From: Sclerodactyla briareus
Lineage: Eukaryota > Echinodermata > Holothuroidea > Dendrochirotida > Sclerodactylidae
DNA: 64,000 nucleotides
Assembly: GCA_026419785.1 (NCBI GenBank)
Contig: JAODTK010004532.1
Span: forward strand, 62,001 to 126,000
Reading direction: 5' to 3'
Positions 1,060 through 55,194 of the stretch are shown here, in pieces. The first letter of the stretch is position 1, and the number at the start of each line of letters is the position of its first letter. Below the pieces are notes generated by a model. The model was not told the origin of the DNA, ran no database searches, and saw only the letters and a list, made by a program, of their open reading frames with translations. Made by a program: the position numbers and the translations under genes.

Positions 1060-2000
1060 AAGCAACATCCATCGATGAGATGACCGCCCCCCCCCCAAAA
1101 AAAGTGCTACATTGTGAAGCCTAATATGATGATTTAGATTGAATTTGCTAATATGAAGAGTTTTTGGGGGGCTCTATCCCAATAAGTGTCAAATTATAAA
1201 CTTGAAAAATTGCCGACATCACCTCCCCATCCCCCCCCCCCGGCACCCTGAAAACAGAATGCCGTAGATCATTGCACATGCAGCAGTAACCGTAATGTGT
1301 GTCAATGCAAGAATATTGTGGAACCTGTCAATACAATTTAGACTGAGAAAATACTCTGTACACCACTGTGCACATGTCGGTTGTCTTCAGTATTATTCAA
1401 TTGTATAGAGTAGCCTCTAGTAATACAGACAATAACCCTAAAAAAAAAGTTAAACGTTTGAAAATCCAAATGGAAAAGTGCAATTGCAATTTTTGTAAAT
1501 GACGAAAATGCCATAAGTGCCGGCAGGCAGCCTTAGAAACATGGAAAAGTGAAATTACAACCTCATATATGTACACCTAATATGATGATTTATACAGAAT
1601 TGTGTCTAATATGAATATGAGGTGACCCTCCTCTCTTTTTTTTTTTTTTTTCGCTTGAGTGCATTAGGGAAAATACCTACCCACCTATCCTCTTAGGGAA
1701 TAGAATAAGCGTGTTATATGGGCCTGCAAATTCTCAAATTGCCAACAATCCGAACCCGCTCCCTAACAAGTGGATGACACACTGTAATTTATGATTTATA
1801 TAGCACACTTAATCATGGATATAGTTGAAGAAAACCCCCTCCTCCCGAAATGAATTGCCAATCCACCACCCCCTAGCCCGAAGACAAAGCCAGTACGTGC
1901 ATTGTGATAATGATCAGAATTGTGTGTTAATGCTTAATATGAATATGTGACGACCCTCCCCTCTGAAAATATTTGATCAAGTGCATAGAAAAAGACCCGG
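1060..2000 (+). repeat. Degenerate low-copy tandem repeat
   Basis: The phrase 'taatatgatgattta' or 'taatatgaatatg' recurs near 1121, 1577, 1611 and 1937. The later copies are followed by 'gaccctcc-ctct'. The spacing is about 330-460 bp, giving roughly three diverged units interrupted by C, T and A runs. From 830 to 1060 I see nothing. No coding signal. Confidence 0.45.
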
Positions 2001-2599
2001 ACAACAACCCCCCTCTCACCACCTGGGGCTGGGATAGGCAAGTGTGCGGTAGCCTTCAGTGCAGGGCGCGTATGCAGGATGTGTTCAACCCAGGGGGGGC
2101 GCGTGTGCTCTCTAAGCGGAGACGCCACCATCGGTTTGGCCGCGGATCGTACAGAAAATTTTTGAGGTTTTACCACCCCCCAATCTCCGTAATGCCTCCC
2201 TCGGGACATGAGAGGGACCGTTTAATATACTTCACACTAAACAAAAAAAAATCGCTAAAACCCATGTGCCTTCGTCATGGAATTACAGTGAGAACAGAAA
2301 TGATCTTTGCACTCATACTGAAATATATGAATCGGAATTACAGTGAGAACAGAAATGCTTTGCATCATACTGAAATATAGAATCTAAATGAAGGGTGGTT
2401 TTCTTCTCCACATACATATTCACAATATATAAACCAACCGCCATACGAAGGACAGCATTGATTCCTCTGCATGTCAGCCCCATCAGTATAAGCCCGACAA
2501 TAACAAAAAACTCTCATTATGGTTACAGGCGTATATGTACCTCGTTCTGGAGAAAAAATGAACGTGACAATCGGTTCATGTATGAATACTGATGTGTAG

Positions 2600-2995
2600 T
2601 GTATTCGACATGCATTCTTCCCTTCATAAACGTACACATTCATATCAGGCTGAGATTACTGATGCACATTCAAAAACGCCCTATTCTGTCCGGGAATGAG
2701 GCAACTGCATCGGGCTTTGGCGGGAGTGAGGGGAACTGCGCTACCCATGCAGAACCGAGCCATCGCCTGGAACATCAGCATGATTTCCTTGCCAGGAGCA
2801 GTGGCACCGTTCGCAAACGCCCCCACCTCCAGCTTTGATATATGGGTTAGACTTGCAGCTTGCCTGTGGCGTGCCTTGTGGCAGGAGTTCGAACACTGTG
2901 GTTATTTAGCCTTCTCTCTGTGTTTCTTCCCTACAGGTCTCTGGAGCAAAATCAGGGGCGCCATCCTTTCGAAAAAAGTGTGGGTGGTGGGCATG
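2600..2995. other. Insertion present only in the left arm
   Basis: The arm alignment is continuous up to about 2590 (partner about 9535) and resumes at about 3005 (partner about 9500). Roughly 400 bp here has no partner in the right arm. The inserted sequence has two short forward frames (2599-2838 and 2696-2998) that I do not recognise. It is either an insertion in the left arm or a deletion in the right. Confidence 0.55.
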
Positions 2996-5319
2996 TGAAC
3001 TGCAATTAATATATGCGAGAAGCGCCACATTGGTTGGCGCGTAGCGCACCCAGAAAATTTTGGTTTGATACTCCAAGATCGGCCGGAAAGGGCACTCGTC
3101 GAGCCTAGTGCAAAAATCGGATGTGCAATTTCAGTAAGAAAAGAAGGTTGAAGAGTTTTCACTCTGCAGGTAAGGAAGATAAATAAGGAAACACCAGCAT
3201 CTACGGCTCTCTTGTTTCTATGGAAATAATACGTCAGAAGTAAGTTAAAACTAAATACCAAAGAACCCTACTGCAAAGTACAATTTACGTAACAGGTGGA
3301 GCTAGGATCGAAGCCCAACCCCCTTCATTTTAGACTAAAGATCTGGAAATATGTGAATTACGGTGATGTACACATCGTTAGGAAATGTGGGAGATGAATT
3401 TGCCGGCTATCTAAACGGAGCCAATCATTGCTTGGCACGAATCGTTGAGAAAGGTTTCAAGAAACAAGAGATCACTCAAGATTGCAGGCAATAGTAGACC
3501 TACTTTCAGTACTTGACTTTGGTGGCGCATCTGGGATTTTCTTCAGTGGGAGGTGCTGGAGGAAGGGGAGCTAGAGCAGTGGCGTCGCCAGATTTTCGTC
3601 TTGGGAGGGGGACAGGAGGAACGAGAATGCTATCTGAGCGGAGCGCACCAGGTGTTGCGCGGAGCGCACACGAAAAGTTTGTGCAAGCCACCAGATGGCC
3701 GGGAAATGGCCTTCCCGGGCGTTTTATGATCATTTGTGATCACAAATTTGTAATCGGAGGAAATGTGACTTATGCACGGACCTAGGTCCTATCGTTGCCC
3801 CAATTTTCAGCCAGACTGTTTCAACGATGCTGCGATACTAATCTCCACCAGTGCGCGCGAAGCGCGCAATTTTTCTCAGATTCCAGAGCCATCTGAGAAA
3901 AAATCATAATCCCAGCTGAAATTTAGGACATTTAGCCAACTTTACCTCTACTGTCCATCATTATATAAAACGTTATGCCATAGAGAACATGGAACTTCCG
4001 AGTAGCAGTTCCCTGAAGAAAAAACGCGCTGAAAATTCAAGCAGTCGATAGCCTAGGAGAATGCAGTTCAAAAGTGCACGTGGTTGAGAGAGGAAGAAAC
4101 GGGAAAGAGGCTAAAGGGTTTAGTACAAAAGAGGTTGATTGTAGTTGTCACGTTCAATGAGAATGTTGCTGTATTATTTCACCTCACAGCTTGGTATGAG
4201 CTAGGGGCCAATGAGGAGAAATTACCAATATAGAGCTTGTAGAGATGTCGGGAGACGGGGCGAGCAACGGAACGAATTCCAAACATAGTAAGTACGACGC
4301 AATTTGGCACGAACGTAGTACATTATATTCTAGTGCAAATGCCACCAATAGGCTACTGCCTCATTGTCTGAAAAACCACAAATTAGTAGGTCTATATCAA
4401 ACTAGTCGTTTATTACTGGACTACAGAATATTTGTTATGAAAATGAAATTTCTTCGGGGGGTGGGGTGGGGGTTGGGGGCACGGTGAAGGAGCACGGAGC
4501 CCCTCTCGAAAACCTGTGCCCTCTCCAGTGCCCCCCCCCGATGAAATGAGTAATTTCGACAGAAAAAAAATTCGTCCCCATTGGTCCCATGGGCTAGAGT
4601 ACTTCATATGTCAGGTGATGAATAATCTGATCGGAGGGACAGCATCGGGTGTGAGATGGTTACACAGAAATTCGGGATTATGAGGATCCCAGATGTTAGA
4701 AAAGGCACTTCTCAAGTTTCCCTGATCTCTTCACAGCCTTAGTTTGTGGGGCGCTAAACATTGAATTTGTGAGCTTGCCAGATTACGAATATAATTTCGC
4801 AATCTCAACAATGTTGCCTAAATTCCATTGAGTTGACGAAAGAACACATTGTGGGCAATCAGTAGTTTTTTTATGTAAACAGTTCACTTTTGCTTTCACC
4901 CGCTCTCACTTTCCCATTCTCGCCCAACCAACTTGGACTATATGCACTGCCTTGGATGCCTGTGCAATGGTTGACCTAGCAGATATGGTCAATCTTTCGA
5001 CAAAGGATGTAAACATAAATTTATGTCGAAATGAGTTTAACTCATGCCTATAGCGGTAGTGGCGGATCCACCGAAACATGTTAAACCATGAAGTTTCCCT
5101 GATAGCCTGTATGGGGGGGGGGGGGGGCTGCCGGCCCCCGATTCTATATTTTTCATCACGGGATACCGGAAGCTGTGATGTAACACTGATTGGATCAGCG
5201 AGAAGGGGGGGGGGGCTAGTGCTAAACTTGTGGGAACATTCTTCGAACGTTTTTATGACTACAATAGCCTACAGTCCACTTTTCAGTGTTTTTGGTTTCT
5301 CTCGTATTTTCTTTACCAC

Positions 5320-5480
5320 CTTCCCTTTTTCTTATCCTCTTCCTCTTCCTCCCCCCCCAACCCCTCCCCCCCCCCCGTTTCTTTTCCTCCTCTCGTCTCC
5401 TTTCCTTTTTTCTTTCTCCTCTTCTTTCTATCCTCCTCCCTTTCTTCTTCTTTCCCCTTTCCGTTTTTCCTCTTCTCTAC
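5320..5480 (+). repeat. Polypyrimidine tract in left arm
   Basis: About 150 bases almost entirely C and T, with C runs of 8-10. Its mirror partner is the polypurine tract at 6920-7050. Three overlapping forward frames here (5078-5603) are low-complexity Ser/Pro/Phe/Leu artefacts, not proteins. Confidence 0.9.
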
Positions 5481-5599
5481 CGGGGGGCGCGCGCCCCCAA
5501 AGCCCCCCCCCCTGGATACGCGCGTTCAGTATCAATACTAGTGTACGGGAGCCGACAGACCCATGTAATATACCAGTTTACGTACAACTGCAACAATAA

Positions 5600-6840
5600 T
5601 TAGTGTTTTCCCACTCAGAAGCTGGGGCACAAGGCCATTGCCCAAAACCGACGGTCATGGCTTCGTGCCTCCGGTCCACTCTTGCATAACGACAACACCA
5701 TTGCAATGAGCACAAAGACTCTCCCACTGTATCGTCCAACTATTGCCCACGACATCACACGGAAGGGTTATGAGAAAGGCGAAATAGCTTACAAAAAACG
5801 ACATTACAATTGATCAATTTGAAGCGAACCTACAAATAATTCACATGTATGGTTGATTGTCCTCGATATAGTATCATACACAGAAAGACTACGGTTAAGT
5901 AGCAAACGTGTGTAACTCAAAAAATCATTAGGAGCTTTAGATTCACGACGGCGGACGGTTTTTCACGTTGTAGACCACGTCGGCGTCCTTAGCCTGCGTA
6001 AGGGGCGCTTAGATTTCTAAGGAAGTGTCAATGTGCCGGTTACAGTCCCACGAGACCGACGGCCCACGAGGCCGACGGCCCACGAGACCGAAATTGAGAA
6101 AGGGTCCCCGAGACCGAAGGTCGCGAGACCGAAATTGAGAAAGGGTTCACGAGACCGAAGGTCCGCGAGACGAAAATGAAATGGGGTCCACGAGACCGAG
6201 GTCCGCGACGAACCGAAATTGAAAAAGGTCCACGAAGCCGAAGGTCCGCGAGACCGAAATTGAAAAAGCGTCCACGAGAGACCGAAGGCCGCGAGACGAA
6301 AATGAAATAGGGTCCACGAGACCGAAGGTCCGCGAGACCGAAATTGAAAAAGCGTCCACGAGACGAAGGTCCGCGAGATCGAAATTGAAAAAGGGTCCAC
6401 GAGGCCGAAGTTCCGCGAGACCGAAATTGAAAAAGGGCCACTGAGACCGAAGGTCCGCGAGGACCGAAAGTTAGAAAAGGGTCCACGAGACCGAAGGTTC
6501 GCGAGACCGAATATAGAGAAAATCCTAAGGACCGAGCGCTGTTCTGTATGATAAAAAATAGTGGAACACCATAAGGGGAATATCGTTCGCCGCCAATACC
6601 GGCAATAATAGTCGGTGACGTTTGCCTAACAAGTTTCGAACTCACATTCAAGATTGCAGCCTGTCGAAGAATAATTGGGGTAAAAATATGCAACGAGGTC
6701 CACAATAATTGTAGGGTGGGTGTTTTTGTATACGCATCCGAGTGGGGCGGGCGCATCGGGTGCATTCAGGTGGGAGTGGTGTTGTCCGGAGTCCGGGCTC
6801 TCACCTGCAAGTGAATGTTCAGATCATGATGGGTATATAA
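5600..6840. other. Spacer (loop) between the palindrome arms
   Basis: Pairing between arms fades at about 5600 and 6840. The intervening 1.24 kb holds about 440 bp of unrecognised sequence, the GAGACCGAA minisatellite, then about 320 bp more unrecognised sequence. The flank at 5925-6045 resembles the reverse complement of 14100-14350, so minisatellite plus flank may form one module present twice in the window. Confidence 0.6.
6047..6517 (-). repeat. 42-bp minisatellite array 1
   Basis: About ten degenerate units of about 42 bp. Each is a 26-bp monomer (GACCGAAATTGAAAAAGGGT plus CCACGA) joined to a shortened 16-bp monomer (GACCGAAGGTCCGCGA). The 26-bp monomer is the same as that of the array at 13622-14085, which lies in opposite orientation. 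Open frames on the minus strand (6040-6765, 6017-6400) translate the repeat into Ser/Phe/Arg-rich tandem peptides and are not treated as genes. Confidence 0.9.
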
Positions 6841-9800
6841 CATGCTAAAACTAACACGTGTCGAGGGCTAATTTGCTGCTCACATTCAATAAGGCGCGGA
6901 TCAGGGGGGTGGGGGCGCGCTCCCCCCGGGTAAGAGAGAAGGGAAAAAAGAAAAGAGGGGAAAGAAGGAAAGGAGAAGGAGGAGGGGAGGAAAAGAGAAA
7001 GGGGAAGAAGAAAGAGGATAAGAGAGAGGAGGGGGGTAAAAAAACAGAGGAAAATCAATAAACTGGAAGGTGAATGGATATATTGTGCGTTATGAACCGA
7101 ATAAACCGTGAGAATGTTACCAAGACTTAGCAACTATCCCCCCCCCCCACCCCGCGCTGGTCCAATCAGCGGGTACCATCAACAGTTCCGGTATCTCGGA
7201 TGAGAAAAAAATATTTGGGGAGCGAGGCTGGAAGCCTCAATCCCCGCCACCCAATACGGTATCAGGGGAAAAACGGCAGGGGGTTAATGATGATTCCATA
7301 CCAGCTGGCTGAGTTGAACTCAATTTAGAATAAAATTTATGTTCATGGACATTCCTTTCTCACGATAGATGGACCATAATCTGCTTTTATGAAAGCCGCC
7401 GAACCTGCAGAATCAGCTGAAATAGTACAACGTTACACCGTTAAACCAACTCGAAGCCAATTATTTACTCAAGCCCCTGCACAATAACATCCTTAATACG
7501 ATTCGATCAGCCGGACGATGGGGCTCCGTTTAGATGGTCACTCATAACCCAAAACCCTCCAGGTGTCATTAAAAAACCAAGTTAGGGCAAAACCAATAGC
7601 CAGGAAGCCGAGCAGTGCAGTGCATTTTCAAGTTGGGATCGAAAACTTGAGTTAGCGCAACGCGGGCGGGAGAAAGGATATATAAGAGAAGGTGAAGCAA
7701 GGGAGAAATGTCACACCAATTATTCTGAGTGCCACAAAAAAACCTGGTGGTTTCTTCGTAAACTTCGAATGGAATTTTAAGCAACTTGCTCAGAGGCTTG
7801 CGTATTTTTCTTTCGGATTAATTAGACAAGATCACCATTTCTAATGGTCTAACGCCCCTGCAACAACCAAGGCTGCTGAAAAAAATATGGAAGATGGGAA
7901 GTGCCGTTTCTTAACATCTAGGAGGCCTCATATCCCAGAATTGAACGTGTACACCTACTCACCAACCATGGTTGGTCTCTCCGCTCAGATATTTGAAGGA
8001 ACGAGACAGCCCAGTAAATACTCTAAGGCCCGTGCCGTCGCCAAGGGGCCAATGTCCCTCGAAAACCATGAGCCTCCCTCGTGTGCCCACCACCCCCCCT
8101 CCTCCAAGAAAAAAAAAAGATTTTGATTTTAGAAGAAAATCTGTAGTCAGTATTTCACGACCAGTTTGATATAGATCTGGCTAATTTGCTGTGTTTTAGG
8201 ACAAGAAAGGCAGTAATGTGCCAAATTGCATCAATGCACTAAAACGGATTACTACAAAGTTCGTCATGCTTGCGGCGTGGTACTAGTGGGGGAATTCTCC
8301 CGTTGGCTCTCCCGTCTCCGACATCGATGCAAGCTCTTGGGGAATTTCTGCCTCATATACTCATTGTCCCCCTAGCTTAATACATATAAGCGAGGAGAAA
8401 TACAGGTAATAAAAACACATCTCATTTAATCATTCACTCTACCTCATTCTCATTAACTACAATCAACATCGTTTTGGATTCTAAAAAACCTTAGCCTTTG
8501 TCCGTTTCTTCCTGTCTAACCACGACAATTTCAACTGCGTCGTTGCTATCAGACTGCTGGATTTTCAACGTGGTTTTCTCCAGAAACTTTACTACCGGAA
8601 GGTTCCCTGCTCTCTATGGCATTACGTTCATATCATGATTGGAAAGTGGGGCAAAAGCTAGCTAAATGTCCTAAATTTCTGCTGGGGATTGATTTTTAAG
8701 ATAATTCTAAGGAAAACTTGAGAAAAAAATTGCGCGCTTCGCCCGCAACGGTGGCAGAGTATAGCGCAGCAATTGTTGAACTTCTGGCCAGCAAGTGAAA
8801 GCGCCCGGGGAAAGGTCATTTCCAGGTCATCTGGGGGATGTACGGCGAAATTACCGTGAAAGATCCGCGCCAATGATGGTGGCGCTCCATTCGAATAGTA
8901 TTTCTGTTTCTCCTGAAATGTAGGTGCCCCCCCCCCCCCAAGAGGGAAAAGTTGGCGAAACCAGGCTCACTTCCGCCCTCCCCGGCCCCACTGAAAAATC
9001 TCAGCTGCGCCACGGGGAGTCAAGTACATGAAAGTACTATTTAATTGCAATCTGAGTGACATAATTCTCCAAAAACGTTCTCAACGATTTCCGCCCAGAG
9101 TCAATGATTGGGCCCTTTAGATACCCGGCAAAATTATCCCCCACATTTCACAACGGGTTTATACATCAATTCACATATTGTGCCAATTTGTGATCAAATA
9201 TTAATAGTAAATGAAGGGGGTTGGGTTCAATCCTGGGTCCACGTGCAGTAGGTTCTTGATATCTAGTTTGAAATCACTTGCTGACATATTCTTTCATGAA
9301 AATAGATGATGTGTTGCTATAGTTATCTGCATATATCTTTCCCAGAGTGACACCTCTTCAATATCCTTTTCTTACTGAAATTGTACATACAGATTTCTGC
9401 AATTAGGCCCGGAAGTGCATTTCAGTGATCTTGGCGAGTCGGAGGTATAAAAAAGCCACAATTTTAGGGGTGCGATACGCGCCAACAAATGGCGGCGCTC
9501 AGCTCAGATAGTAAATTGCAGTCCAAATCGGTCCCCAATATAACATATATTAGAATAATATAAGACCGTTCTCCCAGCTGAAAAATGTCACTCATACGAC
9601 TGGTAATATAGTAGTGATCATGAATGAGAGATTGTTTAGTATAGAGGTTTGTGTATGTTGAATATTGTATGTGGAGAACAAAAACCCAACCTCTCATTTA
9701 GATTCCAATATTTCCCGTAAGAGTGCAAGATCATTTTTGTTTGCAGTGTAATTCCACCACGAGAAGGAACTTTGTTTTTAACCGAATTGTGAGTTTTGAA

Positions 9801-9955
9801 ACGGTCACTCTCGACAGGCCCCGAGGGGCCATTACGGCGATAGTGTTGGTAACCTCAAAATTTTTCGTCCACGCTCCACGCCAACCGATGGACGGCGTTC
9901 ACTTACATAGTGAACTGCGCCTCGGGTTAAAAAATATGCATACTCGCCGAGGGTG
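6840..9955 (-). repeat. Right arm of the ~8 kb inverted repeat
   Basis: Reverse complement partner of 2050-5600, about 0.4 kb shorter mainly because the 2600-2995 segment is missing. Several subsegments carry a shared box near GATACGCGCCAAC..ATGG (about 8857, 9473 and 9880). That box is also the core of the ~185-bp tandem array at 12025-13250, so the outer arms seem built partly from diverged tandem units. C runs at about 7138, 8092 and 8925 match G/C runs in the other arm. Confidence 0.85.
6915..7055 (+). repeat. Polypurine tract in right arm
   Basis: About 130 bases almost entirely A and G, the mirror partner of 5320-5480. Such a tract could form H-DNA; that is inference. The frame 6858-7061 is a Lys/Glu/Arg low-complexity artefact. 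Confidence 0.9.
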
Positions 9956-10011
9956 AATTACACTTGAACTGTAACAGTTTTCCTGAGGCCACTCAGTTGC
10001 GTATAGGCCTA

Positions 10012-10125
10012 CTCTAATAATTAATAATTAATAAATAAATATAATAATCATAATAATAATAATAATAATAATAATAATATAATAATATAGATAATACTAA
10101 TAATAATAATTAATAGATATATATC
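10012..10125. repeat. (AAT)n microsatellite
   Basis: Interrupted ATA/AAT repeats immediately outside the right arm of the large inverted repeat. Confidence 0.95.
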
Positions 10126-11399
10126 GCAATTCAGCACACAATTGCTGTTCTAGGCGATTAACAAGGGCACATCAGGAAGAAGAAAGAGAAAGAATAGTGT
10201 TCGGATTAGTCTTAAATGTAGAAAACGTTTTTCACAAAGCTAATTGATCTGGTAGTCGATTAACAGGGTAAGGTGCAGCGTACATGAAGCAGCGCATACA
10301 TATGTCTTCGACCACGAGGTTTGGATTTGGATTCGGAGTGAAGTTACCGGACAGGAGGATACGGAGACAGTAGCCTGAGAAAATACACAGGATGTTACAG
10401 GGAAGGGCACGCGAAAAGCAGAGCAACATGATTTGAAAATATTTCTTCACAAACCGATCGCCAGTAGAGCTCTCTCAAGGACCGGAGTAGTGACACGTTT
10501 TTCTTTTCCGTTAGCGTCGCGGCTGCAGGGTACTGTATTTCCCTATTTTTTTTTTTTTTTTCGAACAATCCGGCAGGCCAATAAGAAGGAATTCAAGAAA
10601 TCAACCTGGATGTAACCGGGAAAGCATGAAATCAGATCTCGCAAGGTCTTATCATCAGGAGAGTTCCTCAAATAAGTCATATTTTCTAACTGCCTAGTAG
10701 CAGAACGACAAAGATGATTTACGTAAAATGCATTTAAGGGTTCCAGTGCGCCCCCACAAAATGAAATACGACCATACTATCGTGCAGATTAGTCTCCAGT
10801 GTTATTTTTTGGTTCATCCGATATACTATTTGTCGGGATTGTGGAGCACCAATATTGGATACTCACTGCAGTCGACTAGGATTTGGACGCCATCATCTTG
10901 TCTCTTGTTGCGATATACCCATAATACTTTTCCATCCTGAGGAATACATCATCTAAGCGTTGGCCATTGGGCTCCCTCGGACCCACCATCACAGCTGACC
11001 TGACCCATAATGTTAATATTGTACGGTCCGATAAAGCACGCCACGAAGAATCCAACGAGCTATTTTCACTCAGATCAGTTCCGAATCAAACGCGTTGCCG
11101 GGTTATGACCTTTTTAGTGCGTGATAGGATGCGGAAGGTATACGATCTACCCATAAGTGACAATTGCCTGCGCCTCTATGCTTGCATTCAAACAGTACGA
11201 GCCACATGGGAAGGAAAATCTGATAAAACATTATCGACAGAGCTTTTCAACCTTGCCAAACCCTATAAGTCCCTAGCCATAGGCTTCACCAATTTATAGT
11301 ATGTATTTCCTTACCACTGTAGTTCATGAAAACACACAATACAACAATAATAACGCCAGGTAAGTCATCAAATAGTATAATCATTCGAAAAATGAAGAG
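10126..11399. other. Unassigned sequence
   Basis: No repeat of other parts of the window was found here. A T run lies at about 10546-10561. One forward frame at 10967-11299 is listed separately. Confidence 0.5.
10967..11299 (+). CDS. Unrecognised 110-codon open frame
   Basis: An ATG-to-stop frame of mixed, non-repetitive composition with a polar middle (SDKARHEESNELF) and a basic stretch (LVRDRMRKVYDLP). It is one of few frames here not explained by low complexity or by a known repeat, so it could be an exon or the remnant of a mobile-element gene. I recognise no domain. No splice signals, partner exons or codon bias support it, and a chance frame of this size is expected in 64 kb. No function is proposed. 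Confidence 0.12.
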   Translation: MGSLGPTITADLTHNVNIVRSDKARHEESNELFSLRSVPNQTRCRVMTFLVRDRMRKVYDLPISDNCLRLYACIQTVRATWEGKSDKTLSTELFNLAKPYKSLAIGFTNL

Positions 11400-11530
11400 T
11401 ATATTTAATTATATAATATAATAATATATATAATATAAATATAAACAATATAATATAATATAAATAAATAAAAAATATAAATAATATATATAATATAATA
11501 TCATATAAGTATAATATAATATAATATACA
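11400..11530. repeat. (AATAT)n AT-rich microsatellite
   Basis: A run composed almost only of A and T with ATAATATA periods. The minus-strand frame through it (11368-11784) is Ile/Tyr/Leu low-complexity. From 11530 to 12020 I see only a C run at about 11831-11844. Confidence 0.95.
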
Positions 11531-12024
11531 GTCAAACCCGCATGAAATTGAACTGAATCAATCATATAGTCCTGATCATTCATGCGACTGAAACGAAGCT
11601 CATACCAACACATCAAAATTAAGTCTTTCAGTAAACTGGTAAAAAAACAGTGATCCTGAAATTGAGCATCAATAAAGAAGTGCTGGTATCCTGCGCAAAC
11701 TGATGGCGCCCACGATTCCTCCGGCGGAGGTCCAATTGAGTTCGACGGAGTGCCGGGATGGTTCGAGGGAGTCCGAGGACTCACCTACGCACTACCCCTG
11801 TCGAAACCTTGAATTTTTATGTGTCACCCTTCCCCCCCCCCCCCAAGGAAAACACAAATATAATTTGCGGAGTGGTGAAAAGAACTACGACAATGGTTCC
11901 AGTACGACCCGACCACCAAGGCCTACCGCTGATTTCTAATCAATGGCTACCTTTTTGTTCAGAAAGTGTATAATACAGTGGGAGTGAAACATGGGAAGGC
12001 CACAAGAAAAAAGGCGTGAAAATC

Positions 12025-13250
12025 GGTCAGTTCATTCACCAAGTTCGGAATTCAATTACGGAAATTTATTGTCAACTTAGGGATGAGGCTACTGCCCATA
12101 CGGCCCAGGGGAAAGGCCATTCATGCATTCTGGGAGTTTGTGAGACGTTTTCTTTTACACACGCGCCAACCGATAAGTGGATGATATTGTAAGGAATAAC
12201 ATCGACGTTTACTTCAGCTTGGGTTGGAATGTCAGTGCAACCGAAAAGGAACCGTTAGCGACACTATATAAACAAAGCTATCAGGTGTTGGAGCGGCATC
12301 AGCCGTCAGTCGACGTGATGTACCAATGCCTACTCGAGTCCGTTGGACTGACACCAGTCACCGTTTTACAAACCTCTCCATGCAGGAAAAATAGAGGGAG
12401 GGGATATGAACCCACAGACATCGGAATTCATTCATCCCCCGTGCATAAAGTTTTTGAATGATAAACAGAAGACGCTAACTCCGTCCTATTTTTCATAGCT
12501 TATATATGACTTGTATATATGGGATTTTTATTCATGAAGTTTTTTTTTATTTTTTTAAATGTCAAGGCCTGTAGTACGTGCGAGCTCTTGAAATTAATTT
12601 CTGGATTACTCACTCATATTACTTCTTATTTGATTACTAAGTATATGGTAGGAATTAAGGCCACGCATGAAAATTGTAAGGATAAAAATTAATCAGTTTT
12701 GGAAATTTATTGCAATTCTAGTGAGGTTGCTCACTGCCATAAGGTCTGGATGTGCCGTTCCGGCAATTCTGGGGTCAGTGACACGATTGTTTTTTTTTCT
12801 ATACGCTATGCGTCAACCGAAGGTGGCGCATGATGTAAGGATGAACATTGATCAGTTCTTCTAGAAAGGTCTTGGAATTAAAAAATTCAATTCCCCCCCC
12901 CCCCCCCGGAAATTAATGGCCAATTTTAGGAAGTTGCTACTTGCCATAGCCTGGTAAGATGTCCTGCAATATGGAGGGTACGTAAAAGGATATGTTCGTG
13001 TAGATACGCGTCAACCGATGGTGAACCCGAATTGTGACGATATACATCGATCAGTTTCTTCCAGAGAAAGTCTTAGAATTCAATTCGACATTTATTGTAA
13101 TTCAGGGGATGTGTTATGTATACGGCCCGGGGAGTGACGTTTCTGCAATCTGGGGGTCCGTGAAACGAAAATTCTAGTTGGACGATACGCGCAACCTATG
13201 GATGGTGAGACTCGATAACCAAGATGGTCAGACAGACGCCATTCTGTTTA
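12025..13250 (+). repeat. ~185-bp tandem repeat array
   Basis: At least four units share the same order of boxes: ATCAGTTTCTTCCAGA, then TCTTGGAATTCAATT, then TTTATTG-AATT, GCTACTGCCATA, GGCCCGGGG, GCAATTCTGGGGGTC, GATACGCGTCAACCGATGG. The last box occurs near 12160, 12803, 13003 and 13185, a spacing of about 182-200 bp for the last three. A diverged or foreign 480-bp segment (12200-12680) separates the first unit from the rest and contains the frame 12177-12461, which I do not recognise. A 17-base C run at about 12893 interrupts one unit. The same terminal box appears in the arms of the large inverted repeat. Confidence 0.75.
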
Positions 13251-13570
13251 ATAAAGGAAGGTTGGAAATTACATGATACTGTCGGGGAACAGTTAGGCCC
13301 TCGTCGGAGTGTGTAAATTTTACGACACCCCATCGGGAAACAATTCCGGCGAAAGGGGGGGGGGGGAACGTTCCCGACGGGGCATGCATGCCCCCCAATC
13401 TGCAGGAATGCCTACCGGAACCCCAATATCAAACAAGAAGAATAACAAGTGTATGACGAAAGGGCCGTTAGGACGGAAAGTGTGGGAGACCGGACCTCTT
13501 CCCCCTTCATAGCTACTGAATTGAGAGTCACTAAGTCATTTCAAGAGAGTCGTTGAATTACTTCGGCAAA
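13251..13570. other. Unassigned sequence between arrays
   Basis: Contains a G run at about 13357-13366 and 'cccgacggggcatgcatgcccc', a small GC-rich palindromic stretch. No coding signal. Confidence 0.4.
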
Positions 13571-13621
13571 AGTTTAAATAACTGGAAGAGATCGGAACGG
13601 CAGAATGATATATTCAGGTTC

Positions 13622-14085
13622 TTCCTTTCGGTCTCGCGGACCTGCGGTCTCGTGGGACACTTATGACTTTCGGTCTCACGGACCTTTCTTACTTTCGGTC
13701 TCGCGGATCCTTCCGCAACTTTCGGTATCGCCGGACCCGTTCTCACGTTCGGTATCGGGGACCCTTTTTATGTTTCGTCTCGGGACCCTTTATAGACTTT
13801 CGGTGCGTGGAACTTTTGTAAGTTTCGGTCTGCGGACCCTTCGCAATTCCGGTCTCGGGACCATTTCAAGTTTCGGTTCTCGCGGACCCGTTGCACTTTC
13901 GTCTGTGGACCCTTTTCAAGTTTCCGTCTCGCTGACCCTTTCTCACTTCCGGTCTCGCGGACCCTTTTCCACTTTCGGTCCGCGGACCCTTTTTGACACT
14001 TCGATCGTCGGTCTCGCGGACATTCGGTATCGCTGGGACGTCGTCTCGTGGGCAGTCGGTATCGGGACCTTCGGTCTCGTGGGCT
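13622..14085 (+). repeat. 26-bp minisatellite array 2
   Basis: About 17 degenerate units of 26-27 bp with core CTTTCGGTCTCGCGGACCC. It is the reverse complement of the monomer of the array at 6047-6517, without the alternating 16-bp short monomer. The frames 13605-14108 and 13768-14195 are repeat translations. The right flank (14100-14350), reverse complemented, resembles 5925-6045 in 'cagatttcacgacg' and in 'cccacgagacc' at the array edge. Confidence 0.9.
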
Positions 14086-14339
14086 GCCCACAATGTGCAG
14101 TTGGGTGATGTAAATGCGCGCGTTTTAACGATTGCGCGTCCGAGTATTGACAGTAGATTCCGAATCCATTGTTTTAGCCTGTGGAATGATGCCACGCGAT
14201 GGGTTCAAGTCACGTCGGTAGGGACAACGTGGGAGTGCAGTGAGTGACTCCCGTCGTAGACCGACGTAGTACGGCAGGTGGTGAGGTTGTCGTATGCGGC
14301 AGTAAGTTAACATGGCGCTCATACGTTGCCGTTGCTGTC

Positions 14340-15033: not shown

Positions 15034-16434
15034 TCCCGGGTATGGAAAGCCCTGCTGGACAGAAATACCATTTTTAATGCTACCATATATTCCATTTTAT
15101 GGTGCATAATTCCATTTTTGGTAGCATATATTCTTTTATGGAGATATATCACAGGCCAATGGGAAGCAAGGAAGATTTATGGTAGCTTAAATCGAATTTA
15201 TGGTAGCATGTAAATCGAATAATGTACCAGTATTCGAATATATGCTAACTATATTCGAATTTATGGTAGCATTAAACGAATTATGCTACCATATATTACG
15301 AATTTATGGTAGCATTAAATACGAATTTATGGTAGCATTAAATCGAATATATGCTTCCAGAATTCGAATAATGCTACATATATTCCGAAGGTTTGGTAGC
15401 ATTAAATCGAATATATGCTACCATATATTGGAATTAAGGTAGATATATTGGATTTACTGCTCCCATTATTCCTGGCCTTCCATTGGCGTGTATGAATAAG
15501 TCTATGCGATGTAAAAAAAATAGGCGAACGGGTTTGCGCGCGCATATGACATTGTAATGCATGCTGTATCCCATATATGTATTGTAGTAGTACGCGCCGT
15601 TATAGGCCCGCTGAGCCGAAAACGTACGATACGTACGTACATGATTACGCAAAGGCCAAGCGGCGTCAAGAGGGACGGTGATGAAACCGCAGTCGCCAAT
15701 CTTGGCATATGAAGAGCTCTTTCTCAGAAGGTACTAGTCTAGTCAAAACATCTCGAGTGACTGAAAAACCTTCTCGCTGATTGTCATGTTCTGCCGCATT
15801 CACATCTTGGGTATAAGTTGTCAAAAACCGTACGCAGTCATCATTTCAAGGACGAAAAAGATTTTAGGAAATTCTCCTTATTGTGACGCCATTTTGACCA
15901 TGCCCACGGGCGCGGCGTCGGCGCATTTCACTAACTATATAGCGAGAGCAGAAAGCAAATGCCAACTTGTGCGGAACACAATTATGTCTCCGGTTGGCGG
16001 TAAGCAAATGACCATTTGATTGGTTATATTTGCCAGGTAGTTTTGATTGGCCGAATATATGGTAGTCATTAAATCGAATAGATGGTAGCATATATTCGAT
16101 TTACTGGTACATAAATTCGATTTTAGGTAGCATATATTCCATTTTAATGGTAGCATATATTCCACAAGCCAATAGGAAGGCAGGAATATATGGGTAGCTC
16201 ATATAGTCGAATATATGGTAGCATATATTCGAATATTGGTAGCATATATCGAAATATATTGTAGCATATATCGTTGAATGCTACATAAATTAGATTTAAA
16301 TGCTAGCCATATTATCCCTGCCTTCCCATTGGCTGTGAATCTATGCTACCATAAAATGGAATATATGCTACCAAAATGGATATGGTAACATTAAATATTG
16401 TATTTCTGTCCAGCACGTCTTTCCATACCCGGGA
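15034..16434. mobile_element. Fold-back element with subterminal subrepeats
   Basis: The ends are inverted copies: TCCCGGGTATGGAAAG at 15034 against CTTTCCATACCCGGGA ending at 16434. Pairing continues inward through GTCCAGC(A)GG / CTGGACAGAAATA and through 'ccaatgggaagcaaggaa' (15156-15175) against 'ccttcccattggctgtg' (16320-16336). Each arm of about 400 bp is filled with alternating inverted subrepeats of TATGGTAGCATTAAATCGAA and its complement ATATATGCTACCATATATTC. The inner edge of the arms repeats the CCAATGGGAAGG box (15474-15488 and 16168-16180), enclosing about 560 bp of unique sequence (15490-16045). No transposase frame, so non-autonomous. No clear target-site duplication was seen. 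Confidence 0.8.
15490..16045. other. Unique centre of the fold-back element
   Basis: Non-repetitive sequence between the arms. Short overlapping frames exist on both strands (15502-15708, 15786-16019, 15864-16091), none recognised. It includes CGTACGATACGTACGTACATG, a small palindromic word. It may be cargo or the remnant of an internal region. Confidence 0.45.
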
Positions 16435-17560: not shown

Positions 17561-17899
17561 GTTTAGAAGGTTAAACAGTACATCAACCTTTTTGTGGTAT
17601 ATAGTGTCGTTCAATTTACATGATGGTTCAGCCCTGCTGGAGCGTTGTTGAAGTGGGGAGGGGGCTAGATAATGATGCTTCCCCCTACGTATCGCTCGTG
17701 CTACCCTCTTTCCACTCAGCAACAGGAAATTGTGTACCAGAAGGATGTTGGGTAAACAAACGAAAAGTTTCGTTCACAAGTCTACCATATAGATTGAGAG
17801 AAGTGGCTGTGCCTATACCATATGGAGTCCTATGAATCAATAAACTTTTGCAACGACTTATGAGGGCAGTTAGTGAGAGGTAGACAGAGCGAATATGAT

Positions 17900-18085
17900 G
17901 TACCACAATGGCTCACTCGTGATCAACCAGGTTTCATCCGCTCTTAGATACTCTGTCTTCGTTATCAACGATGATTTCACTCATTCCACGTCGATGTGCA
18001 GTTGACTTTCACAGGTACGGCCGCATTGGTCTTCCTATAAATACCATTGGGTTTCCTTTTACTTATAAATGATAATAGCTATATA
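17900..18085 (-). mobile_element. LINE fragment, antisense (RT region)
   Basis: Direct repeat of 19670-19850 with 'ctcactcgtgatcaacca', 'tactctgtcttcg', 'gccgcattggtct' and 'ataaataccattgggtttcc' in the same order. The box CTCACTCGTGATCAACC matches my memory of the antisense strand of a widespread animal jockey/CR1-type LINE and lies upstream, in sense, of the segment at 18720-19060. Family placement is therefore by memory, not search. Broken fragment. Confidence 0.5.
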
Positions 18086-18089
18086 CAAG

Positions 18090-19060
18090 CGAGTTTGATT
18101 ACTCCTAGAATATCTAGGAACCAGTGACGTTCGAAGTATTTTGTTCTTGCAGCTGGATAGCTTAATAAACTTATAATATGCCGCGGAATGATTAGCTGTT
18201 TACTGCCCTGCTTACGCTCATGAACTTGACTTCTCCTATCAAGGTCAATTCTTGGGCTTCACGATTTCGTTCAGACCCATCTTGAATAAATCAAAAGCAC
18301 AGCTATTAAGTTCCATTCAGGCTTTGAAATAATCGAGAAATAAGCATCAATGATATTGAAAATGGATGCTACCGTTCAATACCTCATCTACATGAAGAAC
18401 TCGTTCAAATTCACAGCCCTCAATAATTTCTATTCTTGAAAAAATTGGTGCACAGACCGATAATATAAAAAACCCCAGCCGACCGGCCCGCTTCTTCACA
18501 TGGAACTATTCCACTGAATTACGAATTTTGACCTAATACTATCGTTTGAACAGATTTTGTTTTCCAAATAGTAGTTTTCGTATCAGTCATCTTCGGGAAG
18601 GCTTAACCACTCATTTATAGCTCTCTGTGAGAAGAATATTTACGAATATCCACTAGTAACTTTGGAAAACTGAAGAAAACAATAATATGGAAAGGAAAAG
18701 GAATCTCCAAAACCATTGACAATTTTAAAACATGAATCAAATCACCTCGCATTCGTCTAGCCCCTCGAAGTTAGACCGAGACGCCTTAATCTTTCCTCTT
18801 AAGGTAAATCTATAAGACAGTGAATTAATCTGGTGCCCCCCCGCCGAACATTTTAAATGTAAACTGCTTATCTCTCTAGAATAAAGGATTTCATACATGG
18901 ACAGAATACTCCAGGTGAGCTCTCACCAGTGGTTCAAACAGCCTGACAACAATATCGTATCTTTATCCAGGAGACTGAACGACGTCTATTCAAGCTAAGA
19001 ATCCAATTACCGTCCCTCGCAGCTTCAGTACACTGCTTGAGGGTTTCAAGAAGAATCGAA
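18090..19060 (-). mobile_element. CR1/jockey-type LINE 3' segment, antisense
   Basis: On the minus strand, 18720-19060 resembles the end of the reverse-transcriptase frame of animal jockey/CR1-like LINEs: the boxes for 'EYC..FWSP', 'KLE.VQRRATK', 'YEERL..L.L.SLE' and 'RRLRGD' lie in the expected order. On the plus strand these read as 'atactccaggtgagctctcacc', 'ttaatctttcctctta' and 'aaatcacctcgcattc'. The segment 18090-18600 is repeated directly at 23270-23755 and would be the C-terminal and 3' region. The frame is interrupted several times by stops and indels, so the copy is dead. No 5' part is present. Confidence 0.65.
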
Positions 19061-19486: not shown

Positions 19487-19667
19487 ATTAATCGCCCTCC
19501 AGGATGCCGCCCGAGCGAAGGCGTATTGAGACCAGCCGCAACCATCGGGTGGTGACTTTCGCCCAATTTTGTCGGTGTCTATTGGTATGATGAAGAAGCT
19601 TCAGAGACCCACTGATACACTGGAAGTGGCACACGATTGGGGAAGGGTATGACAGAGAGGCATATGA

Positions 19668-19852
19668 CTAACCACCAATGCTCACTCGTGATCAACCAAG
19701 TTTCATCCGCCCAGGTACTCTGTCTTCGTTTATCCACGATGATTCACTCTATTCCCACTTCGATGTGGCAGTTGATACACGGTAAGGCCGCATTGGTCTC
19801 CCTATAAATACCATTGGGTTTCCTTTTACTTCTAAATGATATATATAGTGAT
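19668..19852 (-). mobile_element. LINE fragment, antisense, second copy
   Basis: Close direct repeat of 17900-18085, ending in the same 'cttttacttctaaatgata'. Its position 600 bp after the RT C-terminal segment (18720-19060) fits one antisense LINE interrupted by other DNA. Confidence 0.55.
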
Positions 19853-23269: not shown

Positions 23270-23755
23270 AACTTTGCCTTTCATTGATTATTCCTCACTC
23301 AAAATATCTAGAAACAGGGACGTTTAGAAGCTATCGGACTTGCATGGATAGCTAATAAATATTTATTGAGCAATTCATGGCTTCACGATTTTGTTCAGAC
23401 CTATGAATCGAAAGCACAACTATTAAAGTTCCATCAGCTTTGGAAATATTCGAGAAATAAGCATCAGTGATATGAAAATGAAGGCCATCGTTCAATAACC
23501 TCATCTCCCAGAAGAACTCCAATCGAAATTGCAGCCCTCAAATAATTTCTATTCTTGAAAAAAAATGGTAACAGTCAGCGAATTTAAAAAAAACAAAACA
23601 GCGGCCAGCTACAACAAATGTATATATGTTTCGTCCACAGGGAACCTATTCCACGAAATTATGTGAAATTTGGTAATTATGTGTTAATTTTTTTTAGGGT
23701 TAATACTATCGTCCCAACAATTTTGTTCAAATAGTAGTTCTCGTATCAGTCATTA
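23270..23755 (-). mobile_element. LINE 3' fragment, antisense
   Basis: Direct repeat of 18090-18600. Shared in order: 'ttcacgattt-gttcagacc', 'aaagcacaactatta', 'gagaaataagcatcagtgat', 'ttcaataacctcatct', 'aataatttctattcttgaaa', 'taatactatcg' and 'aaatagtagtt-tcgtatcagtcat'. The RT segment found beside the other copy is absent here. Truncated and non-functional. Confidence 0.7.
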
Positions 23756-46269: not shown

Positions 46270-49125
46270 GTGCGGAACAGTTAAATGATATTATGTGGTG
46301 AATGAATGTCCTCAAGTGGAGTACACCGTAGAATGAAAGAGAAGAAGAAGAAGAGAACATGATATTGCAGTGGACCTCGCAGGCTATGGAGTAGGGACGA
46401 AAGGATTATAGGCACAGCTTGGTGTTGTTTGTTAGAGTCATTTCCTACTTCATTTCTGGCAGTGTCAGGTTTACTTTCACAATGAAGCTTTGACATCCCA
46501 GGACATGCAGGACATACCCCACCCCCAATTGTGTCGACTAGATAATCTGATCTAACCATAATACCTTTGACTAGAGGTCGCTTTAGCAGGATTTTCACTC
46601 AAAATCAATATATTCTTGTTCGGAGAATGCCAGTCCAGTAACCTGTCCGTGGCCTAATCATGGTCATTTGTACAGTTTGCAGTAACAGTGAAGGAATGAT
46701 GTACGAACTAAAAATTGACGGGTGAAAAATGATTATTCTAATTACACCCTGTAGCATATGGCGAAATTAAGCATTAGGCCACACACAGCAATGTTCCGGA
46801 AATTGTGGTCATTATAATTTCAGTGATTTGGGTGTTTTTAGGTTTGGTTTGACACAAATCACTTGATCTTGCCCTACATAACTTTTTGGTGAGGAATTCT
46901 ATAAATTTCACATGTCAGCAGTTGTTAAATCATTTAATGCTAATATTCTCAGATAAATTCGAGAAGTTTTCTGCAAACAATCCGTTCTGGTAAAGTTGGA
47001 TTGATGCCTGTCGATCTCGTTCTGTGTTAAGACGAATTATTAAATTGTATTCCTCACTTTGAGTGAATGTTACCTTAATCTGATTGCGATATAAAAAATA
47101 TGCAAGTTGAATGACAACCACAGCTCTGTGAATTTAGTCGTCTTGTCCAATGGTCTGGGGGACGTACTCTATCTGCTCCATGATTGGCTCCCTCCAAAAT
47201 GGAAGCAACTTGTCTATAAGGGCCCGCTGGGTGGCCCAGACAATCTGGAAAGACGTTGTTACGGCTGTGGAACACTGCAGGTTACTGCGGGCACACCTCA
47301 GAAATGGGAAAGGCGTACACATGAAAGGAAAACGCTATCTGGACAAGGTTGTGCAACCCGTCTTAACACAAGACTATGTCAGTCTGCGCAGCCGGTCAAC
47401 CTTGCACCACTGCGTTGCATGCGCGGACTACACGAATAGGCTATTCATGCCAATCTTTGAGGGAAATTCCAATTTGAAGGACGATTGGGGACTTACGGTG
47501 AAATTCTTTGGTAGCTAACTAACAAGATGACGAATATGTATTTGGAATATTTTCAAAAACACATACTGAAGTTGTTCCTGACTGATGGTCATGTATTAAG
47601 TTAGCGAAGCAATTGGTTCTGGTTGTATAGTGAGCAGCGTGATGTCTACAAGTTGTAGGCAGTACAGGAGCCATGCCAGTCTACTGTCAATGATTCTATG
47701 CAGTACTGTTAAAACATGTGCTGGGTGAGTGGTTCAGTGCAGAAAAAACAAAAAAATACTCACTTTGGCGAATGCCGGGATCGTTCAATCGACGTGTATG
47801 TTATCACTAATGAAACAGTGGTCTTACAAAACGATCGAATTCACAAGAAATCGTAAGGCATTGATGTTATTTGAATAAATACAGACTCTCTTTGGGGGTA
47901 TTATACCAATGCAAATGAAGAACTTTTCAGGGGCGATTTTCTTCAATATTATGACAGTTTTTGCCCCTAATGTGATTTTGAGAGTCTTTTTCAACTTTGC
48001 CACCAGCGCCGGGGGGGGGGGCCGGTTTTCCGGACGATGCTCGGATTTTGTTACACCATGAGGTTACTTGCACTGCGTTTGGGAACTTACCCTGTCGGAT
48101 ATTTTTTATACTCGTGTTTTTCCATAGAATGGGTTTAGAGAGCAAATGATGCTTCCGGAGAAGTTTAGAAAAGATAAAAAAATAAATTTGATTAACTAGC
48201 GTCCGAAATTTCATCGAATGGCGTATTCGCAATTTTGGCGAATGATGTCAGTGTGTCTGCTAGTGAATAAACCATCAGTGATTCTTCAAATGACGAAATC
48301 ATGAGAAGTTCCTGGTTCATCCAAGCTTCACCTCCAACAATGTATTTCTACATTAGATCACATAATAGATACAAAGTGTGTGTAAATTGCTAATGGTTTG
48401 AACAAACATTCACTGCGGATCTATGAAACCAGTTACGGAAAGCCTGAACTCACAAGGAAAACAGATATCGCCAACGAATAGTATCCCATATCCACTAGTA
48501 TATTGTATCCAGAGAGTAATAGCTCCCTCTATTTTTTAGAAACGGTTCCCTCATTTCGTCTGCTAGCAGGCATTACTGAGAGGGCGAGATTTGAACACAG
48601 TACTGTGAAGAAAAGTTCGTCCTTCAATGTTAACAGGTTACCACCACAATGTGACAGAAGCCAAAAGCTTAAGAATAGTAATTAATACTATCACTCTCAT
48701 CGATCTTTCTCCAGTCACAAGGCCTCCATTGTCTCCCGATCCGTCTGTAGGGGTAACACTTTCGTGAAAGCACCATTCCGTTGTCTACTGAGGTGCACAT
48801 CATCTATGGGGTGCGAGTTAATGGCCGTGATTGGGAAATAATTCAGCTGACCATAATCCGTGATCGACTGATTGGTTGAAAGTGCTGGAGGGAATATCAG
48901 GAAAATTCGGGAATAAAAAACTTTAAACCTTGAAAAACTCTTAAAAAGCCTGAGTTGGGTGGGACAAAATTAATTGACATTCATAAACCACCACATTCAC
49001 TGATGCGAAAATATCAAGCCCCTTTAGAGGGTCATACACAAGCAATTCAGACCTTGGGCCACTGCCTAATATGGTTGTTACATTTGATAGAGCGGAATGG
49101 TGCAGTCAAGACGATGAAGCACACG
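46270..49125. other. Mostly unassigned sequence
   Basis: No within-window repeats were seen. A G run lies at about 48011-48020. One frame at 47150-47518 is listed separately. A B-box-like GTTCAAATCTCGCC (minus, about 48587-48600) stands alone without a good A box. Confidence 0.4.
47150..47518 (+). CDS. Unrecognised 122-codon open frame
   Basis: ATG-to-stop frame of mixed composition with basic and aromatic residues (ARWVAQTIWKDVVTAVEH, then LRSRSTLHHCVACADY). A second forward frame (47107-47439) overlaps it in another phase, so only one, or neither, can be real. It resembles coding sequence more than its neighbours but I recognise no family; an exon or a transposon-gene remnant are possible. 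Confidence 0.15.
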   Translation: MVWGTYSICSMIGSLQNGSNLSIRARWVAQTIWKDVVTAVEHCRLLRAHLRNGKGVHMKGKRYLDKVVQPVLTQDYVSLRSRSTLHHCVACADYTNRLFMPIFEGNSNLKDDWGLTVKFFGS

Positions 49126-49149
49126 AAGTGGGCCTTATCGTTCACACGC

Positions 49150-49330
49150 GTATTGTTGAAGGGCTCATCTACTGTAAGCGTAAGGGACCGAAATCGTATT
49201 TCACCTAATCTACTTACCCCTTATCGACCATGCACCCCCTCAATATGCTACCGAAGTGTCTGGCATCAACATAGTACCGGGTGGCCAGCCCATCGCCCTT
49301 CACTTTCTGCCAGACGTATTCGTCGCACGA
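49150..49330 (+). repeat. Left inverted terminal repeat of DIRS-like element
   Basis: Key shared boxes: ATTTCACCTAATCTACTTAC, CCCTTATCGACCATGCACCC, CTCAATATGCTACCGA, GTCTGGCAT, TAGTACCGGGT and CCCATCGCCCTT. All recur in the same order in the reverse complement of 54990-55110, and the first two also in the reverse complement of 54800-54850. Confidence 0.75.
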
Positions 49331-50289
49331 GTGTTTCGTCATGGAAAAAGTTCAAAAAAATTTCGACAAAGGAGTTGTTACGGTTGTTGAACTGTTTGGA
49401 GACCGAAAGCTGATCATCCAGCTCGTGGAGAAGCAATTGGAAGAGTGGGGTTCGTTTTTCTCGAGTTTTGGGTTTCTGTGTCTTCTTGTCGCCGTCTCGC
49501 GTAAGTACTTCAACAGCCTAGGCTGCGCTACGTAGGGATGGGTGGTGTACCTCCCGTGCCTAACGTCACTTGTGTGGTTAAACAGTGGGGTGTCTCTCAC
49601 TTGCGGAAGTCGCTTGTGGGCTTTGGGGGTGTTGTTTGGAGGTGTGGGGGGGGTTGTAGGGGCAGTACCGGAAGCCCTCTTAGCCCCTACCCACCCTCCC
49701 TGGGCCCTACTCCCAGTCCGTCCCGGGGGGTCCCTGTTTCCCAACCCGTCCCTCCCGGGGGTGGTGGTTTGGGCTGTCGCGTGTGAGCGTGGGAAGTTCG
49801 CGGTGCGGCGGCGACGAAGGGAAGGAGGAGAGAGAGACGGAGAGATAGGTAGTGAGGTTAATAGAACGGTCGGCCCCCGTTCACATCCTGGAGGAGCATC
49901 AGAGCCCGGGCCATCGGTTGCAGCAGAAAAACGCTGGCTCAGCAAGCAGCGGAGCGCCGTGCCGGAAACGAAGAGGCCCGCAGGTGGGTTTCCCCGAGGC
50001 AGTAGGACCAGCCTGGGAAGACGGCTGACTGTGTACCGTATCTGGACTCCCCATGGTCGGATCGTGGCCGGGAGTTCCGTAGTGGCGAGGTGGTTTCACG
50101 GTCCAAACCCTGCAGTTCATCGGGGAGGACAGCGGAAGAAGCCAAGGAGCCAATGGTAAGCAGGTTCAAGACCGCCGGGGGGACTAGCTCATTCCGGCGG
50201 GGCTCGGGGGTGACTCAGATCGGATCGAAACCCCGGCCGCATGTGGAGCGCCAGGCCGAGCGTGAGCGCAGAAACCGACGTCACTATCG

Positions 50290-51300
50290 GGTGGTGCTCC
50301 GGGACGAGGATTCCAGGGGAGTCAGTGGGGGGTCCCGGCGGCTCCGGCGGCGAAGCGACCACCGGGTGCCGGGGACACCGGTGGGTCGGATACCGAGGTC
50401 CGGACTCCGAGAGGGTCTACGGTTCGGGTGGGGCGTAAGCGGAGCGCACGGCCAGATTAGGCAGCCGAACCGACCACAGGGAGCCGGGGAGCTCGGTGGG
50501 CGGATACCGAGGTCCGGACTCCGAGGAGGTCTACGGCTAGGCGGGCCGCCGCGGAGCCCGGTACCGCTTTAGCGGCCGAATCCGACCACGGGGCGGGGGC
50601 TTGGGTGTAGACACCGAGGTCCGGCCCCGAGGTGTCGACGGCCGGTTAGGGGCGCGGGTCGGCTGAAGCACGGCCCCTGAACAGACCACAGGGAGCGGGG
50701 TGCGGGGTGGGTTGGGATCGAGGTCCGGACTCGGGGGGTCGCGGTTTGTTAGGGCGCCGGCAGAGACGGCCCGGTCGGCTTAGGCCCGGCGAACACCGAC
50801 CATCGGGAGGGCAGGGGCATCCGGTGGATTAGACACCGATGATCAGACTCCGTGAGGAGCGGCGGCTCGGTTAGGGGCGCCGAGGCCAGGTCGGCTTCGG
50901 GCCGGCCGATCCACCGATGGAGAGGAGGCTCCGGGGGTTAGACACCGAGAGAGGGACTCCGAGAGAGGGTCGGACGGCTCGGTTAGGGCGCGGCGGAGGC
51001 GTGCTGCCCCCCGTCGGCTTAGCTTCAAGTAGTGTCTGGTCGGCGAACAGGCCACTGATGCCGGGGGACTCCGGTGGGTCGGCACCGAGGTCCGGACTCG
51101 AGGGTTGTCGACGGCTCAGTTGAGCGCCTGCGGAGGGCCGGTAGGCTTCGCCGACCAACCCTCACGGGAGCAGTGGCCAGGGGGAACAGGACACCGGACC
51201 GTACTTGAGAGAGGGCGCCGGCGGGGGCCAGATCGGCTTTGCCGGCCGAAACCGACCACCGGCGAGACGCCGGCGGTCTGACACAGAGGTCCGGTCTCTC
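50290..51300 (+). repeat. ~110-bp GC-rich tandem array inside the element
   Basis: About nine units marked by CACCGAGGTCCGGACTCCGA near 50391, 50505, 50613, 50719, 50838, 50943, 51083, 51188 and 51281, a spacing of 93-140 bp. Each unit also has 'gaccaccgggag', 'gtctacggct' and 'ggccg' boxes. Degenerate relatives reach about 52050. The array lies in the 5' third of the DIRS-like element. Frames on both strands through it are repeat translations. Confidence 0.8.
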
Positions 51301-54794: not shown

Positions 54795-54855
54795 GACGGT
54801 GCTACTGGTCGATAAGGGGTAAGTCAGTAGGTGAAATAGATCGTACAAAAACGTG
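54795..54855 (-). repeat. Internal complementary region-like repeat
   Basis: Reverse complement of 49190-49240 (ATTTCACCTA..CTTACCCCTTATCGACC). Its position just inside the right terminal repeat is the arrangement known for DIRS elements. Confidence 0.6.
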
Positions 54856-54984
54856 CGGGTTTGTGAATCTGTGAAGCCTACGAATATTACCCCTAAAGAC
54901 AGTCCCACCATCCATCCCCTCTCCCGGGCGTCGTGCAGGCGTCCACACATGCGCTTTCCGGGGTAAACCCTGAGAAGCAGGACG

Positions 54985-55175: not shown

Positions 55176-55194
55176 ACCGGGACAAAGTATTACA

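Follow-up and report, generated by a model that had tools for sequence, protein, structure and literature searches.

Does a diverged palindrome with kilobase arms represent a single fold-back transposon that moves as a unit, or does its symmetry have another origin? The question is raised by positions 2050..9955 of a 64,000-nt stretch of Sclerodactyla briareus contig JAODTK010004532.1 (62,001-126,000), hereafter the window, whose positions serve as coordinates throughout. A preliminary description had reported landmarks running in mirror order along two arms here, and a BLAST comparison of 2062-5525 with 6893-9950 confirmed the mirror similarity, returning seven inverted-strand blocks at E <= 1e-3. 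Six of the seven, which are the main ones, keep the mirror order at 68-80% identity and pair 2128-2333 with 9891-9701, 2334-2435 with 9755-9646, 2993-3725 with 9528-8798, 3820-4427 with 8780-8140, 4978-5423 with 7385-6932, and 5367-5508 with 7036-6904; the seventh is a 42-bp block off the diagonal. A same-strand control and a reversed, uncomplemented control of the same arm-versus-arm comparison yielded 0 blocks each. Local blocks were used because a global alignment of the whole arms misaligned the outer ~0.9 kb. The left and right arms measure ~3.46 kb and ~3.06 kb, with similarity reaching nearly to both ends of both, and the ~1.36-kb centre between them (about 5527-6890) is not mirrored.

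The left arm (2062..5526, plus strand) is a complete, dispersed terminal inverted repeat (TIR) transposon of a family that we call A, in which no coding sequence was recognised. This assignment draws on its genomic copies, their common ends and a count of the end pattern. With 2050-5515 as query, a search of the assembly (319.5 Mb in 3171 contigs) gave at least 107 matches including the window itself; among the best 40 of 1937 candidates scored, copies of at least ~2.9 kb show 73-79% identity and shorter pieces 69-90%. The arm is judged a discrete element because several copies share the same start and end limits, starting at query base 11-18 and stopping near 3460-3466. Its ends read CAGGCGCGTATGCAGG.../...CCTGGATACGCGCCTG, and the ends common to other family A loci, CAGGCGCGTATGCAGGATTTGTCAACCCGG (outer) and CCCCTGGATACGCGCCTG (inner), form a short inverted repeat. 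Allowing <=3 mismatches, the 30 bases of the outer end recur at 88 places, versus 0 for a backwards control.

Target-site duplications provided a second line of evidence for the limits of the left arm. The arm is flanked on the plus strand by CAGTG at 2057..2061 and CAGTA at 5527..5531, which are identical at four of five positions and lie in the wider contexts TTCAGTG and TTCAGTA. Across 16 family A loci with both ends, the window's own among them, the flanks agree best at a length of 5 bp, with a mean identity of 0.575 versus 0.309 for shuffled flanks (z 5.0), and lengths of 3, 4, 6, 7, 8, 9 and 10 gave z values of only -0.5 to 2.5. Exact 5-bp duplications were found at three of the 16 loci, namely CTCTA (L007), GAATG (L008) and AAGAA (L015). 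Dispersed left-arm copies with the same ends exist, but an inverted arm or loop was present on the axis side of none of the eight near-full copies checked, for each of which ~5.6 kb of flank was inspected. The sole match to the 2062-9952 span among these eight flanks, next to L035 (C2364), is a weak 88-bp family match of 72.7% in direct orientation.

The right arm (6891..9952, minus strand, inverse in orientation to the left arm) belongs to a sister subfamily of TIR transposons, family B, and lies nested in a larger element described below. It carries the ends of its family, AAGGCGCGGATCAGG at 6891 and GCATACTCGCCGAGG finishing near 9952. Each arm has a short terminal inverted repeat of its own, and the earlier statement that the structure has no simple TIR was mistaken. 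Searching with 9960-6895 gave at least 134 matches (best 40 of 1393 candidates scored), and the copy lists for both arms are lower bounds. In all seven loci that group with the right arm in the tree below (C2445, C739, C1975, C2917, C2321, C607 and C1051), similarity runs beyond the arm and into further window sequence at one end at least. Matches in the more distant family B relatives L046, L047, L048 and L050 are confined to the limits of the arm, and the right arm is for this reason considered a separate element. Read by eye, the 5-bp duplication of family B is exact at L047 (ATTAT) and appears at L050 (GTCAC) only when the start is set one base later. Flanks of the nested right arm are of the same kind in those copies where they can be read; ATGGT is obtained on both sides only if the C407 sequence on the inner side is set against outer flanks taken from other copies, a pairing that crosses copies since C407 has lost its outer arm end.

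Relationships between the two arms were addressed with a tree of the segment equivalent to 2993-4432 in 38 sequences, comprising the two window arms and 36 of 40 loci (L014, L023, L025 and L030 were left out for length). A right-arm group containing L040-L050 and the window's right arm splits from the left-arm group with a support of 1.000. The window's left arm groups with L002 and L004 (support 0.857), and its right arm pairs with L045 inside the set of nested copies (support 0.847). Being placed in opposite clades, the window arms are therefore not each other's closest relatives.

Following right-arm copies outward revealed the context in which the arm resides. Four of the seven copies (C2445, C1975, C2917 and C739), all chosen through the right-arm search, were followed on both sides, and all lie within copies of one larger element, whose window copy occupies 6037..14090 (plus strand, ~8.05 kb). 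This foldback/TU-like element has inverted tandem-array ends, contains the right arm, and is defined by its four other copies and its end pattern; at its far end it extends 4 kb past the palindrome. The left array (6047..6535, plus strand) is built of a ~41-bp unit, CCACGAGACCGAAGGTCCGCGAGACCGAAATTGAAAAAGGGT, and the right array (13626..14086, minus strand), inverted relative to the left one, shows 25-26/50/75-bp periods of the same motif. Inverted arrays of one motif at both ends are present in the window, C2445, C1975, C2917 and C739, and the four copies outside the window align with window positions that begin at 6038-6059 and stop at 13901-14089. Their internal structures vary: C2917 lacks the equivalent of window 6693-7185, ~4 kb of other sequence lies within the left array of C739, and the window copy itself is missing, at 6819..6820 (plus strand), about 57-74 bp that are present in five other copies (C607, C739, C2445, C1975 and C407). 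Where the left arm should stand beyond the axis, it was found in none of the four followed copies, which were viewed to ~4.6-4.8 kb past the element start in C2445, C1975 and C2917 and to only ~0.6 kb in C739, whose left array is broken by the ~4-kb segment.

The larger element is bounded by GGTTACAGCCCACGAGACC ends, and its left-end sequence, GGTTACAGCCCACGAGACCGA, is matched at 28 places when <=2 mismatches are allowed, versus 0 in the control. In the window it is flanked on the plus strand by the 8-bp duplication CAATGTGC at 6029..6036 and 14091..14098. With ends placed by eye, the duplication is exact in two of five copies (the window, CAATGTGC, and C2445, GGTTGGAG), agrees at 7/8 positions in C2917 (GTTAGTTG/GTTATTTG) and at 6/8 in C1975 (TGAATTTT/GAAATTTT), and is not recognisable in C739. 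A search with 10130-13600 alone gave as its best eight other places C2445, C1975, C1051, C2917, C607, C739, C2321 and C407, in all eight of which the right arm, or some remnant, is present. The interior is a mosaic, with about 10131-10722 listed in C2171, C329 and C296 without the remaining element.

Between the left arm and the larger element lies a spacer (5532..6028, plus strand) that is common to neither family as far as seen. A search with 5533-6028, in which 28 of 28 candidates were scored, returned besides itself only partial matches of 66-89%, none of them listed beside a copy of either arm. Two loci were considered as candidate empty sites of the nested arm. C407 (L059) was rejected, as it carries an internal deletion and retains ~170 bp of the inner end of the arm. 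At C2992 (L060), the inner flank ...GCTGCCCTAAATTCAA continues as CGGTGATAC, similar to the outer flank ATGGTGATAC over ~8 exact bases (GGTGATAC), after which there is no BLAST match to that flank. This short junction makes C2992 a possible, tentative empty site, and it may reflect a different rearrangement.

Searches for coding capacity and structured RNA were largely negative. Pfam comparison of 10 of the 55 stop-to-stop ORFs (>=60 aa) in 1500-10500 gave no usable match, with one meaningless hit at E 0.17, and the earlier remark that the palindrome has no transposase frame holds to that extent. No transposase was detected in 9 of the 21 ORFs of 9950-14090 or in one spacer ORF. Weak matches to PF24528 (E 0.0054) and PF19855 (E 0.05) lay under the respective cut-offs and were not believed. 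Rfam returned nothing at gathering scores over the window. As suggested earlier, a transcript of the palindrome might in principle fold into a long hairpin RNA and give rise to siRNAs, but the arms are only 68-80% alike, in separate blocks, and none of the present results favours the idea.

The ends of hAT transposons begin with CAG or CAGG. Families A and B are bounded by CAGGCGCGTAT ends, with CAGGCGCGTATGCAGG / CAGGCGCGTATCCAGG-like ends in most of the A and B loci inspected, and their short TIRs starting with CAGG resemble those of hAT elements. The duplication length offers a further likeness, since hATs with 5-bp target duplications are termed hAT5 in the relevant part of PMC12730594, which cites Kapitonov and Jurka 2007; general hAT background is provided in sections of PMC3517528 and PMC6004678. 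For family A this likeness comes from the peak at length 5, and for family B from inspection by eye, the nested window copy being unclear. In contrast to hAT5 elements, no transposase was found in the arm ORFs tested, and the interiors of 3-3.5 kb contain no recognised coding sequence. Judged by ends and duplication length, both families resemble non-autonomous elements of the hAT5 type.

For the larger element, the closest parallels are foldback transposons. The sea urchin foldback element is named TU, and TU elements show 8-bp duplications and short tandem units. The 6037-14090 element is similar in its inverted tandem-array ends, modular interior, 8-bp duplication and lack of a recognised coding sequence. 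The relevant passages of PMC4079207 include the sea urchin among hosts of foldback-type elements (element of Lieberman et al. 1983) and describe duplications of 8-9 bp, together with TIRs that contain tandem repeats, in Drosophila Tetris, and those of PMC4168063 describe tandem repeats that extend the TIRs of Galileo. The element differs from Tetris, for which the same part of PMC4079207 gives a repeat unit of ~220 bp, in its units of ~41/25 bp, and from known foldback elements in that each inverted end spans ~0.5 kb. The element resembles foldback/TU elements in form. The TU precedent raised in the preliminary description suits this overlapping element, with its inverted tandem-array ends, rather than the palindrome as a single unit. 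Literature searches on TU foldback elements in sea urchin, on sea urchin hATs with 5-bp duplications, and on nested passengers in foldback elements returned nothing. We regard the families described here as members of known transposon kinds and make no claim that either is unpublished.

Taken as one fold-back transposon with diverged 3-kb arms moving as a unit, the ~8-kb palindrome (2062-9952) would account for the mirror order from end to end and for the same kind of terminal sequence on both arms. This reading is highly improbable given that the partner arm is absent from all eight left-arm and all four right-arm copies examined (C739 in partial view), that the arms fall in different clades and hence different subfamilies, that target duplications enclose the left arm by itself and, separately, the 6037-14090 element, and that the spacer is found beside no other arm copy. 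Inverted duplication or template switching of one arm in place, followed by independent decay, is a process known to leave close inverted pairs, yet the tree contradicts it by grouping each arm with other genomic copies and not with the opposite arm; the larger element, moreover, flanks the right arm in the followed copies, and the left arm is bracketed by a target duplication of its own. We see almost no chance that the palindrome arose in this way.

Just as remote is an assembly or read artefact in which template and complement were read through. Actin pieces on C1260 and C2792 that shift frame over short distances do point to some indel errors, or pseudogenes, in the assembly. Other actin pieces with open frames and one U6 gene recovered in full (94.4 bits; best 48 of 23887 candidates scored) suggest a residual error far below the divergence of the arms, which differ by 20-32% in the aligned blocks; in our judgement such error cannot explain a divergence of 20-30%. 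The unmirrored ~1.36-kb centre and the copies of each arm on many other contigs likewise argue against an artefact. The claim of an old genomic structure therefore stands, and gains further from the target-site duplications flanking the pieces and from the spacer, which was found beside no other arm copy. A different question is whether the juxtaposition was fully random, as family A might prefer sites near or in its relatives or foldback arrays. Two family copies lie close together at L022, an inverted pair is ~8.2 kb apart on C2972, and adjacent pieces occur on C2618, but no inverted neighbour was present in the eight axis-side flanks examined, and we consider such a preference improbable.

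Very probably, then, the palindrome is a chance juxtaposition of two related transposons, one of which is a passenger in an old, larger foldback-like element. A family B transposon would have entered an ancestor of the ~8-kb foldback-like element, and the composite would then have spread, being found end to end at five places including the window. One composite copy would have landed at 6037-14090 with an 8-bp duplication, and a related family A transposon would have inserted separately at 2062-5526, 0.5 kb away and opposite in orientation to the nested family B element, with a 5-bp duplication. Because no coding sequence was recognised in the tested ORFs, we can only infer the transposases of A, B and the larger element. 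The CAGG ends and 5-bp duplication suggest that A and B were mobilised by a hAT5-type enzyme from an unseen autonomous partner, and the larger element may have been moved by some enzyme that makes 8-bp duplications. The two arms do not move together and probably share no function as a pair. Nested family B might be no mere passenger if its second pair of ends allowed the composite to be copied or repaired by two transposases, which would explain the nested copy or remnant in the eight best interior matches; we think this unlikely.

Other repeats were observed elsewhere in the window. A GC-rich block at ~49500-55500 (GC 0.53-0.67 over 50-56 kb versus ~0.42 around it) is a dispersed repeat, as 50000-54000 gives at least 109 matches (best 40 of 140 candidates scored), the long ones reaching ~3.8 kb at 73-79%. 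Neither Rfam in 48000-57000 nor Pfam in eight tested ORFs gave a match for this block. It is bracketed by an inverted repeat of ~100 bp and 87% identity (49211-49306 / 54999-55097), which is possibly its terminal inverted repeat. In an AT-rich cluster at 15034-16434, a ~21-bp motif (ATATGGTAGCATATATTCGA-like), itself partly palindromic, recurs both in tandem and inverted, and direct repeats at 81-86% pair 17879-18077 with 19646-19845 and 18246-18472 with 23371-23591.

As a palindrome the structure is ordinary; what deserves more interest at this locus is the larger element. A striking kilobase palindrome can come from two independent insertions of related elements, and the unit of mobility is decided by genomic copies and target duplications, not by a dot-plot. 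Nesting of family B would have preceded the spread of the composite, and the resulting ~8-kb foldback/TU-like family with tandem-array inverted ends would be a useful entry in a repeat library for this genome.
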